64,000 nt of DNA from positions 62,001 through 126,000 of the forward strand of contig JACZJK010000056.1 in assembly GCA_014860575.1 (NCBI GenBank), given 5' to 3'. Below, piece by piece: positions 47,870 to 54,188 of this stretch. The notes under the pieces are model-generated. The model saw only the letters and a list, made by a program, of their open reading frames with translations, did no database searches and was not told where the DNA came from. The number at the start of each line of letters is the position of its first letter. Positions within the stretch are counted from its first letter, which is position 1. The DNA is from Bacteroidales bacterium. Its GTDB lineage: Bacteria; Bacteroidota; Bacteroidia; Bacteroidales; JAAYJT01. The translations under genes and the position numbers were made by a program.

Positions 47870-47986
47870 GCGCACAGTATACTCAAGGCCGATAGCCTCG
47901 CCAGAGGCTAAATATTGGTAGCGAATGATGATCAGCAAACAGTATCTTCAAAACCGATAGCCCCGCCAGGGGCTAAATGTTGGTAG
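47870..47986. repeat. Tandem pair of covarying hairpin repeats after recQ
   Basis: Two 52-53-bp units (47870-47921 and 47934-47986), each a 19-20-bp variable lead (CACAGTAT...TCAA) and a 33-bp core CCGATAGCC-xx-GCCA-xx-GGCTAAATxTTGGTAG (cores 47889-47921, 47954-47986). The stems differ at paired sites: AGCCTC/GAGGCT in the first, AGCCCC/GGGGCT in the second, so pairing is kept. They lie in the 390-bp recQ-esterase gap, which also has GATGGAGTAATGG word repeats and a hairpin at 48013-48029. Confidence 0.75.
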
Positions 47987-48012
47987 AAAAAAAATAATCC
48001 CAAATCCGTTAA

Positions 48013-48083: not shown

Positions 48084-48989
48084 TTATTGATTCCGTGTTT
48101 TATTGCCATAAGCCCACACCAGAAAATCCTTCATTGCAATAGCCCAGGTTTCAGGATGATGTTTCCCGCCCTCAATTTCCAGGTATTTTATTCTTTCGCC
48201 GTTCAGGATATTTTGTTTCTCCAGCTCTTTGATCAGGTCGAGTGTATCATCAATAGAATCAATAACACCGTTGCCATTGCGGTCGCTTTTTTCATCGAGG
48301 GTTCCGGTTTGAAACCAAAATTTTAAGCTGGCAGGAGCATTTTCAGTTGTACGAACTATATCATGTGCAATTCTGAATCTATCAACATTCCGCCCTTTTT
48401 TCCACTCTCGTGTTCGCCACCAGAAACTACCGGAAAAGCAACCTACATTTCCAAAATGATCAGAGTTGTTCCAAGCAATGTCAAAAGCTGATAGCGCTCC
48501 CAGGCTGTAGCCTGCGATGCTATTGTGCGAACTTTTTTCAGAAACTGGTAGCCAGGTTCCCAAATGTGGAATGAATTCGTGCAATAAAAATCGGGTGTAT
48601 AATCCAGCCTTGGAACCCCGCCCCGCATAGTCGCCTTGTTGCGCAATCCCGTATTCCTGCATTCTTTCACCGGCATAAACTCCGGCGACAATGATGGGTT
48701 CTATCAGGTTCTCACCGGTTAATAATTCAAGTGTTTCTTTGATCTTTATCGAACCGCTTTCCTGACCATCGTTCAGGATCAGCAAAGGGTATGTTTTGCC
48801 TGCGATCAAAACTTCCGGGTAGAAGACTTTATAAGTGATTCTCCGATCCAGGGCTTTACTTTTACAGTAAGCTTTGAGTTTTTCAGTGTAGCGCAATTTC
48901 TTTCCGTTGTGTTGTAAGGCGTGGAACAATATTACACTCTTTTTGTTTATTGCGAATGATTTCAAAACATGTTCTCTGTTTTCATGCAA
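48084..48989 (-). CDS. Alpha/beta-hydrolase, putative esterase (Esterase D / enterochelin-esterase-like)
   Basis: 301 residues, no signal peptide. The core fits PF00756-type esterases: PLLILNDGQESG, GDYAGRGSKAGLYTRFLLHE, then the nucleophile elbow IAGYSLGAL (Ser162 in G160-Y-S-L-G164), NVGCFSGSFWW, and the final His in GGKHHPETW. At about 234-250 there is a loop DRNGNGVIDSIDD resembling an EF-hand/dockerin calcium loop. It is divergent from the ligase operon at 49029, with 39 bp between starts, so a shared control region and a related role are likely. Confidence 0.78.
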   Translation of the reverse strand: MHENREHVLKSFAINKKSVILFHALQHNGKKLRYTEKLKAYCKSKALDRRITYKVFYPEVLIAGKTYPLLILNDGQESGSIKIKETLELLTGENLIEPIIVAGVYAGERMQEYGIAQQGDYAGRGSKAGLYTRFLLHEFIPHLGTWLPVSEKSSHNSIAGYSLGALSAFDIAWNNSDHFGNVGCFSGSFWWRTREWKKGRNVDRFRIAHDIVRTTENAPASLKFWFQTGTLDEKSDRNGNGVIDSIDDTLDLIKELEKQNILNGERIKYLEIEGGKHHPETWAIAMKDFLVWAYGNKTRNQ

Positions 48990-49028: not shown

Positions 49029-49751
49029 ATGCAAGAAACTACACATAAATGGTTCTCCAACAATATTGGCGCTGAGATTACTACGCTTTCATTTGGCCAT
49101 GCCGGATTTCCGGTTGTACTTTTTCCAACTTCAATGGGAACCTATTATGAGAACAAGGATTTTAAGCTGGTAGAATCGGCACGCTGGTTCATTGAGCAGG
49201 GATTAATTAAGATTTATTGCCCCGACAGTGTGGATCGCCAAAGTTGGTACAACAAAGGCATTCATCCCTTTGATCGTGCCAGGAACCACATCTGGTATGA
49301 TAAATTCCTGCTTGAAGAGCTGGTGCCGCTGGTTCGGAATGAAACCGCTGTGCAACGTATAGCATTTGCAGGGTGTAGCTTTGGCGCTTACCATGCCATG
49401 AACTTTGCTTTCAAACACCCCGATGCTGCAAGTTATGTGCTTAACATGGGCGGCGCTTACACCATCAAAGACCTTGCTGATGGCTTTCATAATGATGATA
49501 TTTATTTCAACAATCCTGTTGATTTTATCCCTCAACTGAATGATCCGCGCATCTGGGATCTTTTTGTGATCCTCGGCACCGGCGAACATGATATTTGCAA
49601 AGACGACAACCTGCAAATGGCTGAAATACTGCGAAACAAGAATATCGAACACTGGTTGGATGTACGCCCGGGTAAGGACCACGATTGGCCAGTGTGGCGT
49701 GAAATGTTCCCTCATTATCTTTCTGCTATTACTGCCCGGCAATTTCGCTAA
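49029..49751 (+). CDS. Alpha/beta-hydrolase (esterase-like), first gene of the ligase operon
   Basis: A 240-residue cytosolic hydrolase. After VVLFPTSMGTYYENKDFKLV the nucleophile elbow is AGCSFGAYHAM (Ser117 in G-C-S-F-G) and the catalytic His is probably in GKDHDWPVW near the end. The family resembles small esterases linked to ATP-grasp ligases. It is 39 bp before the ATP-grasp gene and likely co-transcribed. I infer that it releases or hydrolyses an ester or amide of the operon's product. Confidence 0.8.
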   Translation: MQETTHKWFSNNIGAEITTLSFGHAGFPVVLFPTSMGTYYENKDFKLVESARWFIEQGLIKIYCPDSVDRQSWYNKGIHPFDRARNHIWYDKFLLEELVPLVRNETAVQRIAFAGCSFGAYHAMNFAFKHPDAASYVLNMGGAYTIKDLADGFHNDDIYFNNPVDFIPQLNDPRIWDLFVILGTGEHDICKDDNLQMAEILRNKNIEHWLDVRPGKDHDWPVWREMFPHYLSAITARQFR

Positions 49752-49790
49752 TTTTGAATATTCCTTCATAAAACCAAAACCACAAAAACA

Positions 49791-50798
49791 ATGAAGAAAA
49801 TCGGAATTTTATTCGGGATGGAAAATACTTTCCCACAGGCATTCATAGAAGAAGTAAACAGGCAAAACATCAAAGGCATCCAGGCCGAAGCAGTCAGCAT
49901 TGACCAGGTTAAGCAGGGCGAATCTAGCGGTTATGCAGTAATCATTGACCGCATTTCGCAGGATGTTCCCTTTTACCGGGCCTTTTTGAAAAATGCAGCA
50001 ATTTCAGGTACTGCCGTCATCAACAACCCATTCTGGTGGAGCGCCGATGAGAAATTCTTTAACAATGCCTTGGCCGTCAAAATCGGGGTTCCGGTTCCGA
50101 AAACGGTATTGCTTCCATCGCATGAGCGGCCCACTGACACTTCTGAGAATTCTTTCAGAAACATGGCCTTTCCGCTTAGTTGGAATGAGATTTTTAGCCA
50201 CATCGGATTTCCTGCCTACATGAAACCCCATGCCGGCGGAGGTTGGAAAAGTGTTTACAAAGTGAACAATGAAGAAGAAGCTTTCCGGGCCTTAAGCGAA
50301 ACCGGGCAGTTGGTCATGATGATCCAGGAAGAGATTCAGTTTACAGAATATTTCAGGTGTTATTGCATTGGTGGGAAATATGTAAAGGTTATGCAGTACG
50401 AACCGCGAAACCCCTTCCACCTCAGGTATGTGATTGACGGGCCAAAGCCATCCGCAAAACTCATTAAATTGGTTGAAAATTACGTACTGAAATTGAATCA
50501 TGCCCTCGGCTATGATTTTAACACAGTTGAATTCGCTGTCAGGGATGGCATTCCTTACGCTATTGATTTTTGTAACCCGGCGCCTGATGCAGATATTAAA
50601 TCCGTAGGACAGGAAAACTTTGATTGGGTCATAAAGCACGCCGCAATGTATGCGATTGAGCGAGCTAAAGCCCAGAAAGACGGAGTGTTGAACCTCACCT
50701 GGGGAACCTTCGTCAAAGCTGCTGTTGATGGTCATGCACCTGACGGATCGCAAAAAGAAAAGCCTGCAAGCGGGAAAGCCAAAGCCGGTAAAAAGTAA
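49791..50798 (+). CDS. RimK-like ATP-grasp ligase
   Basis: 335 residues. ATP-grasp landmarks are in order: FPAYMKPHAGGGWKSV (nucleotide-binding Lys and Gly loop, ~140-154), MIQEEIQFTEYFRCYCIGGK (adenine-binding hinge and substrate region, 177-196), and EFAVRDGIPYAIDFCNPAPD (Mg ligands, 247-266). It should join an acyl phosphate to an amine. The last ~20 residues are a Lys/Ala tail. The glutamate-ligase-like YbdK gene follows 43 bp after its stop. The N-terminal domain (GILFGMENTFPQAFIEEVNR) is a pre-ATP-grasp fold. Confidence 0.82.
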   Translation: MKKIGILFGMENTFPQAFIEEVNRQNIKGIQAEAVSIDQVKQGESSGYAVIIDRISQDVPFYRAFLKNAAISGTAVINNPFWWSADEKFFNNALAVKIGVPVPKTVLLPSHERPTDTSENSFRNMAFPLSWNEIFSHIGFPAYMKPHAGGGWKSVYKVNNEEEAFRALSETGQLVMMIQEEIQFTEYFRCYCIGGKYVKVMQYEPRNPFHLRYVIDGPKPSAKLIKLVENYVLKLNHALGYDFNTVEFAVRDGIPYAIDFCNPAPDADIKSVGQENFDWVIKHAAMYAIERAKAQKDGVLNLTWGTFVKAAVDGHAPDGSQKEKPASGKAKAGKK

Positions 50799-50841
50799 TA
50801 CAGAGAATCAAACTGTTGCCAAACCATTAAACCAACACGTT

Positions 50842-51942
50842 ATGTCTGACTTCTCAATTGGAATAGAAGAGGAATACATGATCCTCGACCCGGAAACCCG
50901 CGAACTGACCTCTCACGATCAGAAAATCGTTGAGATTGCCTCCAAACTGCTCGACGATCAGGTAAAAGCAGAAATGCATCAGGCAGTAGTTGAAGCCGGT
51001 ACCAGTATCTGCGAAAATATCAAGGAAGCGAAAAAGGAAATCTGTATGCTCCGGAAAAATATTGCGGAAATAGCCCATAGCCTTGGTTTCAGGCTGGGCG
51101 CTTCGGGTTCGCACCCATTTTCTCATTTTACCAATCAACTGATCACCCCCAATCCACGTTACGACCAGATTGTGAATGAACTACAGGAAGCCGCAAGATC
51201 AAATCTTATTTTTGGCTTGCACGTGCATGTGGGTGTTAGCGATCGCAACATGGCCATGCATATTGCCAATACCATGCGTTATTTCCTGCCGCATATTTAC
51301 GCGCTTTCAGTCAATTCGCCCTTCTGGGAAGGACGGAACACCGGTTATATGTCGTTCCGCTCAAAAGTTTTTGAACGCTTTCCGCGAACCGGAATTCCCG
51401 ATTATTTTACCAGCTACGACGATTACACCCGCTACATAAAATTGCTCGTAAAAACCGGCTGTATTGACAATGCCAAGAAAATCTGGTGGGATTTGCGGGT
51501 GCATCCTTTTTACCCGACCATTGAATTCAGAATTTGCGACATCCCTACACGGGTTGAAGCAAGCGTTTGCCTGGCTGCATTGTTCCAGGCTTTGGTCTAC
51601 AAACTGTATAAACTTCGCCTAAGAAATGTTACATTCATCAATTACCAGCGGGCACTGATCAATGAAAATAAGTGGCGGGCTTCGCGTTACGGCATTGATG
51701 GAAAGCTGATTGATTTTGGCAAGGAAGAAGAAGTACGTACGCGCGTGCTCATCATGGAATTGCTCGATTTTGTTGACGATGTACTGGTTGAACTCGACAG
51801 CCGTGAAGAAATTAATTACATCTATACGATCCTGAAGGAAGGAACCGGCGCCGATAAGCAACTCGCTGTATTTGAGAAAACCAAAAGCCTCGAAGCTGTG
51901 GTTGATTATATCATTGAAGAATCTGTGCAGGGACTTGATTGA
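50842..51942 (+). CDS. Carboxylate-amine ligase, YbdK / GCS2 family
   Basis: About 366 residues from ATG 50842 (MSDFSIGIEEEYMILDPETR), the canonical start of the glutamate-cysteine ligase family 2 (COG2170). The frame extending to 50725 overlaps the previous gene and is rejected. Other signatures are GLHVHVGV (metal ligands), RFPRTGIPDYF and DLRVHPFYPTIEFRICDIPT. Characterised relatives join amino acids (weak Glu-Cys ligation); here it probably makes one amide bond of a small peptide-like compound. It is third in the operon. Confidence 0.9.
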   Translation: MSDFSIGIEEEYMILDPETRELTSHDQKIVEIASKLLDDQVKAEMHQAVVEAGTSICENIKEAKKEICMLRKNIAEIAHSLGFRLGASGSHPFSHFTNQLITPNPRYDQIVNELQEAARSNLIFGLHVHVGVSDRNMAMHIANTMRYFLPHIYALSVNSPFWEGRNTGYMSFRSKVFERFPRTGIPDYFTSYDDYTRYIKLLVKTGCIDNAKKIWWDLRVHPFYPTIEFRICDIPTRVEASVCLAALFQALVYKLYKLRLRNVTFINYQRALINENKWRASRYGIDGKLIDFGKEEEVRTRVLIMELLDFVDDVLVELDSREEINYIYTILKEGTGADKQLAVFEKTKSLEAVVDYIIEESVQGLD

Positions 51943-52116
51943 AAAGTTGGCAATTGGCAGTGGCAGTAGCAGTAGCAGTCTCAGTAGATAGTAATTTAAA
52001 GCTTAACTTTGCATCCTTGAACATTGAACTTTGAACCCGGAAATTTGAACCCAAAACGCCGAACACCGAACGCCACTTCGACAAGCTCAGTTTCCGGAAC
52101 CTTGAACCTTGAACCT

Positions 52117-52950
52117 ATGACTCAGACTTCTTTCCGCTTTGCGATGATTGATATGTACGATGGCCACGAAAACCAGGGCAAACGCTCTATTGAAACCATC
52201 GTTCATGAATTCGCGAAGTCTTTTAACCTTGATCTCACATACGATATTTTTGATACCCGCGGCAAAGGGGAAATTCCTGATTTGTCGTACGATGCCTACC
52301 TTTCAACCGGAGGACCGGGAAGTCCGCTGGACAGCGAAGGCTCTCATTGGGAAGCGAAGTTTTTCAACTTCGTGGAGCAACTTAGAGCCCATAACCGCAG
52401 CGCTGCTGAGAATAAGAAACCTCTTTTTCTGATTTGCCACTCATTCCAGGTTTTCTGCCGGCATTATGGACTTGCCAGGGTCGGACTGCGAAAGTCAACA
52501 AGCTTTGGTGTGTTTCCGATCCATAAAACTTCCTTTGGAAAGGAAGAACCTTTTTTCAATAATCTTCCTGATCCATTTTGGGCAGCGGATCACCGCGATT
52601 ACCAGGTCACCAAAGTTGACTTTGAAAAAATGGAAGAGTTTGGAGCTAAACTGCTTTGCCGCGAAAAAATCCGGCCTCTTGTTCCTCTCGAAAGAGCGGT
52701 GATGGCCGTCAGATTTTCCGACTATATTTTCGGAACCCAATTCCACCCCGAAGCCGATCCTGTTGGCATGCTTCATTACTTTTCGATGCCCGAAAAACGC
52801 GAACAGATCATTGAGAAATATGGAGAGGACAAGTTTGAGCACATGATTGCCCACCTGAATGTTCCCGGCCATCTGGTTCTTACACGCAACACCGTTTTAC
52901 CTTCATTTCTTGAATCTGCGCTCACATACAAAATGATATTGCAGGCATGA
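52117..52950 (+). CDS. Class I glutamine amidotransferase-like protein
   Basis: About 277 residues from ATG 52117; the extension to 52024 is translated word-repeat. The glutaminase triad is complete: Cys107 in FLICHSFQVF (CHSFQ instead of the usual CxGxQ), His210 and Glu212 in GTQFHPEAD. It is stand-alone, with no synthetase domain. It could supply ammonia to a ligase or hydrolyse gamma-glutamyl bonds, like GATase-type gamma-glutamyl hydrolases. The next gene overlaps its stop by 4 bp (ATGA), implying coupled synthesis. A 174-bp repeat spacer precedes it. Confidence 0.85.
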   Translation: MTQTSFRFAMIDMYDGHENQGKRSIETIVHEFAKSFNLDLTYDIFDTRGKGEIPDLSYDAYLSTGGPGSPLDSEGSHWEAKFFNFVEQLRAHNRSAAENKKPLFLICHSFQVFCRHYGLARVGLRKSTSFGVFPIHKTSFGKEEPFFNNLPDPFWAADHRDYQVTKVDFEKMEEFGAKLLCREKIRPLVPLERAVMAVRFSDYIFGTQFHPEADPVGMLHYFSMPEKREQIIEKYGEDKFEHMIAHLNVPGHLVLTRNTVLPSFLESALTYKMILQA

Positions 52951-54188
52951 TCAAGGAATTACGAAGGCAGTTCAACAACTGGTTCAGCCAGGCAAAATTT
53001 GATGCTTACGCGCATGAGATGCATACGGATTACAATTGGAAGGTTGGTTTTCGCCTTGCCGAAACCCCTGTTTTTCTTCCGCCTCGGCTTGTTGGGGATA
53101 TACTTACGGCATCGGAAACGATAGTTGATTTCCTTGTGAACCACGATATCAAATCCATCACCCAGCCTGCGATTGAAAATGAATTTAATGTTCCGAACGA
53201 GGATCAGCATACCATGTTCCTGGCTATGGATTTTGGGATTTGCGAAGATGAAAATGGCAACATTGTTCCTAAACTGATTGAACTGCAAGGTTTCCCCTCG
53301 CTTTACAATTATATGGTTCAGATTGGGGAAACCTGGCGAAGGCATTTCCCGCTTCCTGAGAATTATGGATATCTCCTCACCGATAAAGGACTGGATTATT
53401 ATCTTGCCCGCTTGAAGCGAGCCATCTTTAATGGCCACGAACCAAAACATGTTGTTTTGCTTGAGATTGAACCTGAAAAGCAGTCAACCTCCATTGATTT
53501 TTATGTTGCTGAAAAAGAATTTGGCATCAAAGTGCTTTGCCTCAGCAAGGTCATCCTCGAGGATCGCAAATTATATTATCTCGAAAACGGGGAGAAGGTT
53601 CGCATCAGGCGCATTTATAACCGCGTGATCTTTGACGAACTCAAACAGCGCCCCGACCTTGAACGGCAATTCAATCTCACCGAAGATGTTGATGTGGAAT
53701 GGGCAGGCCATCCGAATTGGTTCGCAAGAATTTCAAAATTCCTGATGCCTTATTTACCATCCAGCGAATTCATACCCGAAGCACGTTTATTGAGCAGTTT
53801 TAAGGTTTTGCCTGAGGATCTTGAAAATTATGTCTTAAAACCACTTTTTTCGTTCAGCGGCAGTGGTGTGGTGGTTGATGTAAGCCCGGAAGATATTGCT
53901 TCAATTCCCGAAAATGACCAGCACCTCTTTATGCTTCAGCGCAAAGTGAATTATGCACCGCTTATTGAAACTACTGTGGGCGACGGCGAGAAAGCCAAAA
54001 TTGAATTCAGGTCGCTTTACCTGTGGCAGGAAGATGAGCCCCGCCCGGAACCCATGATTCACCTGCTGCGCATGAGCAAAGGCAAACTGATCGGGGTGAA
54101 ATATAACAAGGATAAAACCTGGGTAGGCTCGTCAGTTGCGTATTTTGATCTCGAAAAAGCAAAAAATCAGGCGCGCTCTTCCTCGTAG
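52947..54188 (+). CDS. Possible circularly permuted ATP-grasp protein
   Basis: 413 residues, not a standard family that I can name. The N-terminal part has [20 protein letters not shown] followed by GFPSLY (95-120), which looks like the metal-binding end of an ATP-grasp (D...G...LIExN), while a nucleotide-binding [18 protein letters not shown] (295-312), a hinge-like FMLQRKV (328-334) and EFRSLYLW (353-360) come later. This reversed order fits circularly permuted ATP-grasps, as in glutathionylspermidine-synthase-like proteins. It overlaps the amidotransferase stop by 4 bp and overlaps parE at the 3' end by 22 bp. The assignment is inference. Confidence 0.6.

Follow-up and report, generated by a model that had tools for sequence, protein, structure and literature searches.

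What do five neighbouring genes make together when several of them look like amide-forming ligases? The question is raised by positions 49,029–54,188 of a 64,000-nucleotide stretch (hereafter the window) of contig JACZJK010000056.1 from a Bacteroidales bacterium (assembly GCA_014860575.1). The genes encode, in order, an alpha/beta hydrolase (Est1), a RimK-like ATP-grasp ligase (RimK-like), a YbdK/GCS2 carboxylate-amine ligase (YbdK), a protein of the class I glutamine amidotransferase (GATase) fold, and a protein named ATPg2. A first-pass annotation, made from the sequence alone, had described the open reading frames (ORFs) as running in one direction with short gaps and an ATGA overlap, which the coordinates bear out; all five lie on the + strand. 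It had also expected several ligation enzymes, and, by sequence or by structural model, three amide-forming ligase folds (GCS2, a Ddl/RimK-like ATP-grasp, and a circularly permuted ATP-grasp) belong with a GATase-fold enzyme and an alpha/beta hydrolase to one genetic module.

Co-occurrence was examined in 148 evenly drawn Bacteroidota genomes, each searched with every protein. The RimK-like gene was found in 58 genomes, spanning 24 family groups and 45 genera. All 58 carried an Est1-family hydrolase (the Est1 counts include unlinked paralogues of ~30–40% identity), 48 carried ATPg2, and exactly the other 10 carried m1, a CP_ATPgrasp_2-like protein (ATPg2 or m1, 58/58); YbdK and GATase were present in 50 and 40, respectively. 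Among the 90 RimK-like-negative genomes, Est1 was detected in five, one of which (G062) has a 50% match, ATPg2 and YbdK in one each (the same genome, G144), and GATase in none. The corresponding Fisher values were <1e-20; they ignore kinship, and the sampled genomes are related, so independence is overstated. Physical linkage (within 6.5 kb) to the RimK-like gene was observed for YbdK, ATPg2 and GATase in 32 of 50, 30 of 48 and 29 of 40 genomes, respectively, and GATase was linked to ATPg2 in 21 of 30. RimK-like and YbdK were unlinked in 18 of the 50 genomes with both, and contig breaks may explain part of the unlinked cases (in G109, scored as unlinked, the genes lie on different contigs). 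Linkage is thus found in only part of the genomes carrying the gene pairs, and co-occurrence therefore survives where linkage is lost. Dropped were a weak fragment of ATPg2 (G047), two RimK-like matches at 34% identity (G007 and G087), a 34% YbdK match in G004, and Est1 matches below 100 bits, and small second YbdK and RimK-like matches in some genomes were ignored; the dropped matches of G007, G087 and G004 are outside the co-occurrence and linkage counts and were counted only in the tabulation from which the figure for ATPg2 without GATase, given below, is taken.

Gene order was read from 80 named loci, picked by best RimK-like match and hence biased to close relatives. According to the record titles, from which taxonomy was read, these best 80 of 581 confirmed RimK-like relatives come from Bacteroidota lineages, except L139 ('uncultured bacterium'). 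Eleven loci end early downstream, and in another no RimK-like ORF was called; in 53 of the remaining 68, all five genes stood in the same order, and no other order was observed. Across the 53 loci, mean identity was 70% for YbdK, 68% for RimK-like, and 51–57% for the others, and pairwise-distance correlations between genes, to which shared species history contributes, ranged from 0.69 to 0.90. Since the genes co-occur and, in the named loci, keep their order, the set is not a chance grouping, and the five genes are a real genetic module; the scattered linkage that the first-pass annotation had named as evidence against its proposal was not what the sampled Bacteroidota showed, although RimK-like and YbdK are unlinked in the 18 genomes given above. 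Clustering of neighbouring ORFs (about 100 residues or longer) found no neighbour of at least 100 residues common to all loci examined (flanks were taken for 40 of the 50 ATPg2-positive genomes). Together with the spread over 24 family groups, this fits a conserved metabolite better than a strain-specific secondary one. Among the genes that flank the operon in single lineages, a Crp-like regulator, YceI, a class III aminotransferase, an aldose epimerase and LuxC were considered as parts of the module and rejected. In a tblastn search of plasmids, homologues of RimK-like and ATPg2 were not found, and YbdK homologues were present in 72 records; four were inspected, and the three annotated ones had no RimK-like, GATase or circularly permuted ATP-grasp gene within 5–6 kb.

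Because YbdK and GATase are missing from some positive genomes, RimK-like, a circularly permuted ATP-grasp and Est1 appear to form the irreducible set. Function is further informed by REPLACEMENTS, namely m1 for ATPg2, an M29 peptidase in the GATase slot, and loss of the Est1 nucleophile. Strong m1 matches were obtained in exactly ten RimK-like-positive, ATPg2-less genomes (one being the source of the query itself); by coordinates, m1 lies between RimK-like and GATase in all ten, and it is linked to each of them in 10/10. A 37% m1 match in G137, which also has ATPg2, was kept for co-occurrence (11 genomes) and dropped for linkage, and a 28% match in G102 was dropped. On its similarity to PF14403, above the cut-off of 32 bits in one of the two copies scanned (37.3 bits in L153 and 25.8 in L151), m1 is called a putative circularly permuted ATP-grasp. 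In these ten genomes, one ATP-grasp, ATPg2, is replaced by another, m1.

The assignment of ATPg2 itself rests on structure prediction, since no Pfam or NCBIfam family matched it at E ≤ 0.1. An AlphaFold2 model built from the window protein and 37 named-locus relatives reached a pLDDT (predicted local distance difference test) of 92 and a pTM (predicted template modelling score) of 0.91, and both Foldseek and VIA-align 2 grouped it with circularly permuted ATP-grasps, in agreement with the ATP-grasp-like motifs first noticed in this gene. In VIA-align 2, the model aligned to Escherichia coli YgiC over 345 residues (Z 25.7, root-mean-square deviation 3.6 Å), and to YjfC, Gss, human glutathione synthetase and Cp1B with Z of 25.4, 23.6, 23.6 and 21.9, respectively; the first 26 entries listed had Z of 19.5–25.7, and the first listed outside the circularly permuted ATP-grasp group had 11.7. 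The high-confidence prediction is thus that ATPg2 belongs to the circularly permuted ATP-grasps with the YgiC/glutathionylspermidine-synthetase/glutathione-synthetase fold. When sequence profiles were compared, E. coli YgiC, whose database record is named peptide--spermidine ligase, gave a weak match (residues 246–332, E 1.1e-4, probability only 57%) that spans K264 and K298. These two lysines, as well as D95, E112 and Q114, are identical in 62/62 rows (window plus 61 named copies), and residue 93 is Ala, Gln, Thr or Cys and in no row Arg; a looser motif count had placed Arg before D95 in 4/58, and the column count over the 62 rows is 0. According to part of PMC12568646, Cp1B of fungal E-64 biosynthesis requires R139, D141, E163 and N165, with which positions 93, D95, E112 and Q114 were equated by strand order and eye. 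ATPg2 thus has neither a Pfam match nor the quartet that would place it in the glutathionylspermidine synthetase or eukaryotic glutathione synthetase sequence families. The model-supported fold and the changed quartet residues together make ATPg2 a predicted new sequence family of the circularly permuted ATP-grasp fold, with an altered catalytic signature. In one locus (L048:7636–10239), ATPg2 lies in an 867-residue frame behind what appears, by eye, to be a sodium/solute symporter region, either a fusion or a frame run-through.

For the preceding gene, PF00117 (40.4 bits; cut-off 22.8) and the catalytic triad place the product in the class I glutamine amidotransferase fold. The intact Cys-His-Glu triad reported earlier was recovered throughout, C107, H210 and E212 being identical in 63/63 rows (window plus 62 named-locus copies; the motif patterns matched 60 and 61 of the 62, with the triad columns whole in all). 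The predicted model (pLDDT 92.9) gave Z of 22.5, 22.2, 21.8 and 21.1 with a MetA-type protein, TM1158, Arabidopsis gamma-glutamyl peptidase 1 (GGP1) and DnfC, respectively, and by the modelled fold alone, a hydrolase and an ammonia donor are inseparable. That GATase is a true ammonia donor, passing NH3 from glutamine to ATPg2 to give a C-terminally amidated peptide-like product, seems unlikely to us. The two genes are closely coupled, with overlapping ORFs in 19 of the 61 named pairs (the overlap being exactly 4 bases in 10 of them, using mechanical first starts) and the strongest distance covariation of all pairs (r 0.90, 53 loci), the fold is equally near to DnfC and TM1158, and the triad is invariant. 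However, 19 of 49 ATPg2 genomes have no GATase match at E ≤ 1e-10, and in 10 genomes GATase is paired with m1 instead of ATPg2. Moreover, in two genomes (L039 and L062), in which no GATase match was found, an M29 peptidase sits between YbdK and ATPg2, i.e., in the GATase slot, and this replacement weakly favours a hydrolytic role for GATase. A strong match to the operon-type M29 peptidase was obtained in only 2 of the 148 genomes, with 15 others matching at 26–36%, and no substitute was found in the remaining 16 GATase-less RimK-like-positive genomes.

In the protein that the first-pass annotation called a complete RimK-like ATP-grasp, the motifs KPxxGGGW and DFxNPAP are present in 79/79 named-locus copies. 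The RimK family model TIGR00768 was not reached (39.3 vs 143.4 bits), and family scans returned only sub-threshold RimK/LysX/Ddl matches; the protein is a Ddl/RimK-like ATP-grasp and hence called only 'RimK-like'. RimK adds amino acids to ribosomal protein S6. A protein-modifying role, in which RimK-like would add amino acids to a protein tail and the other enzymes would make or trim the tag, is quite improbable. It would suit the strong conservation of RimK-like noted above and a Lys/Arg-rich C-terminal tail (window 50,700–50,798 and relatives) in 30 of 79 named copies, defined as a K/R content of 25% or higher over no fewer than 20 residues past position 310. It fits poorly with the score on the RimK model, with the missing common neighbour of at least 100 residues (a comparison of ORFs of that size, so that a small tag gene may exist), and with the substrates of GCS2 and YgiC/glutathione-synthetase-type enzymes: peptides or small molecules in known examples, and likewise for Cp1B as described in part of PMC12568646. 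In two loci of family f23 (L159:8649–10184 and L161:5725–7230), an aromatic amino acid lyase-type gene follows RimK-like, as judged by a PF00221 test for the former and by clustering for the latter.

YbdK scored far above the cut-offs of PF04107 (207.5 vs 21 bits) and NF010039/PRK13515 (525.9 vs 371) and belongs to PRK13515, whereas as a GshA-type glutamate-cysteine ligase (TIGR02048) it reached only 68.7 vs 249.05 bits. This last score is one reason why we regard a glutathione-like thiol, in which GCS2 and a glutathione-synthetase-type ligase would produce a gamma-Glu-Cys-X thiol beside bacillithiol, as very improbable. Such a pair resembles that of plant glutathione synthesis, BshA (TIGR03999) gave no match at E ≤ 1e-80 in the genome from which the window comes (G000), and in four genomes of family f20 (L171:7656-, L172:9787-, L173:8637- and L174:8587-) YbdK lies directly downstream of bshA, ~170 bp away in three and 815 bp in one, apart from the RimK-like operon. 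Nevertheless, BshA occurs in 145 of the 148 genomes, with or without the module, and shows no complementarity to it; the window's genome assembly is only 95% complete; and the four f20 genomes have m1 in the operon, from which their YbdK lies apart. The idea that the module replaces bacillithiol was rejected because BshA is nearly universal. As a lifestyle marker, COX1 did not discriminate (140/148).

Est1 retains GxSxG and HD[WY] in 67/67 named-locus copies. In three related genomes (L054, L058 and L061), the operon Est1 has lost the Ser and the HD motif, while an Est1 paralogue elsewhere in these genomes (L198, L197 and L199, respectively) keeps GxSxG; the operon copy is a probable pseudoenzyme kept in place.

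The coordinates of the five genes and of a second, divergent esterase (Est0) are given in the table below.

Table. Genes of the five-gene module and the adjacent esterase in the window
Gene	Product	Position	Strand	Basis
Est0	PF00756 esterase (enterochelin-esterase-like)	48084..48989	-	PF00756 79.1 bits
Est1	PF00756 alpha/beta hydrolase, GCSFG nucleophile elbow	49029..49751	+	PF00756 31.4 bits (cut-off 22)
RimK-like	RimK-like ATP-grasp ligase (module core)	49791..50798	+	TIGR00768 below cut-off; KPxxGGGW and DFxNPAP motifs
YbdK	YbdK/GCS2 carboxylate-amine ligase (PRK13515)	50842..51942	+	PF04107 and NF010039 above cut-off
GATase	Cysteine hydrolase or amidotransferase of the class I GATase fold, C-terminal extension	52117..52950	+	PF00117; triad C107-H210-E212
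ATPg2	Circularly permuted ATP-grasp (predicted), unmodelled family	52947..54188	+	Predicted structure; ATGA overlap with GATase

The family calls originally made for the alpha/beta hydrolase, YbdK/GCS2 and GATase agreed with matches above cut-off (PF00756, PF04107/NF010039 and PF00117, respectively), and the 39-bp distance reported for the divergent esterase holds if the TTG start of Est0 is taken. An Est0-labelled ORF was present somewhere in 58 of the 80 named loci, and Est0 is a frequent, not obligatory, neighbour of the module. Two near-identical short palindromes (gatagcc..gccag..ggctaaat..ttggtag) were seen by eye at window positions 47,880–47,990, in the gap that precedes this esterase. 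Within the set, the gaps are 39, 43, 174 and -4 bp, the last being the ATGA overlap, and the medians across named loci are 45, 29, 38 and 7 bp. The YbdK and GATase starts used are ATG 50,842 and 52,117, respectively; the mechanical ORF list starts them at TTG 50,725, which overlaps the preceding gene, and TTG 52,024. In a check for a linked precursor peptide gene, as expected of a graspetide or another pathway for ribosomally synthesized and post-translationally modified peptides, only mechanical ORFs of at most 57 residues touched the 174-bp gap, apart from the flanking genes; outside the operon, the comparison covered flanking ORFs of 100 residues or more. A consensus scan of the window for sigma-54-type sites gave 40 vs 43.8 expected, not above chance. 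The window's own genome has one match for each of the five proteins at the thresholds used.

Overall, we see about an even chance that the module is a route, independent of nonribosomal peptide synthetases (NRPSs) and ribosomes, to a small gamma-glutamyl-type pseudopeptide or amide in the cytosol and not to a protein tag. In such a route, YbdK would activate a glutamate-type carboxylate as an acyl phosphate and form a gamma-glutamyl amide, RimK-like would add an amino acid or similar unit, and ATPg2 would attach a terminal amine or amino acid to the carboxylate thus formed, much as glycine is added by glutathione synthetase and spermidine by YgiC/Gss. GATase would act as a gamma-glutamyl-amide or peptide hydrolase that either strips off the gamma-glutamyl group or serves in product turnover, its pairing with ATPg2 through the ATGA overlap being likened to the amidase and synthetase of E. 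coli Gss, and Est1 may perform a hydrolytic or acyl-transfer step. More tentatively, and less likely than not, the product could be an unnamed soluble metabolite kept broadly in Bacteroidota and functionally comparable to glutathione or glutathionylspermidine, e.g., a conjugate of a gamma-glutamyl peptide with a polyamine. Three ligases acting in turn would make it, the last being of an undescribed catalytic variant of the circularly permuted ATP-grasps, with D...E-x-Q in place of R-x-D...E-x-N. Thus, of the amide assembly first proposed for the locus, the conserved module and the three ligase folds stand, and the product, the order of the steps and the role of GATase are what we infer.

Several observations weigh against the gamma-glutamyl amide route. 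YbdK is absent from 8 and GATase from 18 of the 58 RimK-like-positive genomes, and a fixed five-step pathway is therefore not universal. The GATase fold ties amidotransferases (TM1158 and DnfC) with MetA and GGP1, and the operon Est1 lacks its nucleophile in 3 of 19 further operon copies. Since ATPg2 is without the Arg and Asn of the Cp1B quartet R-x-D...E-x-N, its chemistry may differ. Gamma-glutamyltranspeptidase is only loosely associated, being present in 46/58 positive vs 48/90 negative genomes. Separately, one locus (L044; G140:C1) has a gamma-glutamyltranspeptidase gene convergent with ATPg2, ~0.2 kb away. If the gamma-glutamyl amide route is true, an amide metabolite not yet described is made by 58 of the 148 sampled Bacteroidota, some two fifths. 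The near-perfect co-occurrence provides a defined minimal set (RimK-like, a circularly permuted ATP-grasp and Est1) for experiment, and ATPg2 offers a family still unmodelled by Pfam and NCBIfam. Judging by record titles, the RimK-like gene is present in Pedobacter, Dyadobacter, Mucilaginibacter and Runella strains, making culture work feasible.

With respect to known systems, linked amide-forming ligases are a general kind already known, and this exact five-gene module looks undescribed. Iyer et al. (2009), in work on amidoligases, reportedly predicted multi-ligase gene neighbourhoods that may include this operon; the likeness lies in the linkage of ATP-grasp with COOH-NH2 ligases. Part of PMC4431377 describes this linkage in general terms, citing work presumed to be that of Iyer et al. 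2009. Searches of the open literature yielded no paper that, by title or abstract, deals with the operon, the passages of PMC4431377, PMC12568646 and PMC12316311 are silent on it (the last mentions COG2170 in one sentence), and Iyer et al. 2009 may list it. YbdK is a PRK13515 member above the curated cut-off, and the three annotated plasmid homologues inspected stand without the module partners within 5–6 kb. GATase shares its fold and Cys-His-Glu triad with Arabidopsis GGP1 (9k7i), from which it differs in its C-terminal extension and low identity (18–19%). ATPg2 shares its predicted fold and the conserved Lys pair K264 and K298 with the E. coli peptide-spermidine ligases YgiC and YjfC and with Gss, but has no Pfam or NCBIfam match, is only 12–14% identical to them where the folds align, and carries no Arg at R-x-D and Gln for Asn in E-x-N. 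As in Gss, where a synthetase is joined to an amidase, ATPg2 is paired with a cysteine hydrolase, although the hydrolase here is GATase-fold and separately encoded. As far as part of PMC12568646 describes it, the E-64 pathway is NRPS-independent and uses stand-alone amide-forming ligases, with Cp1B as the ATP-grasp; Cp1B resembles ATPg2 in its fold group and NRPS-independent setting, and differs in being fungal, in having an oxygenase and an ANL-type amide synthetase as partners, and in a quartet that ATPg2 keeps only in part.

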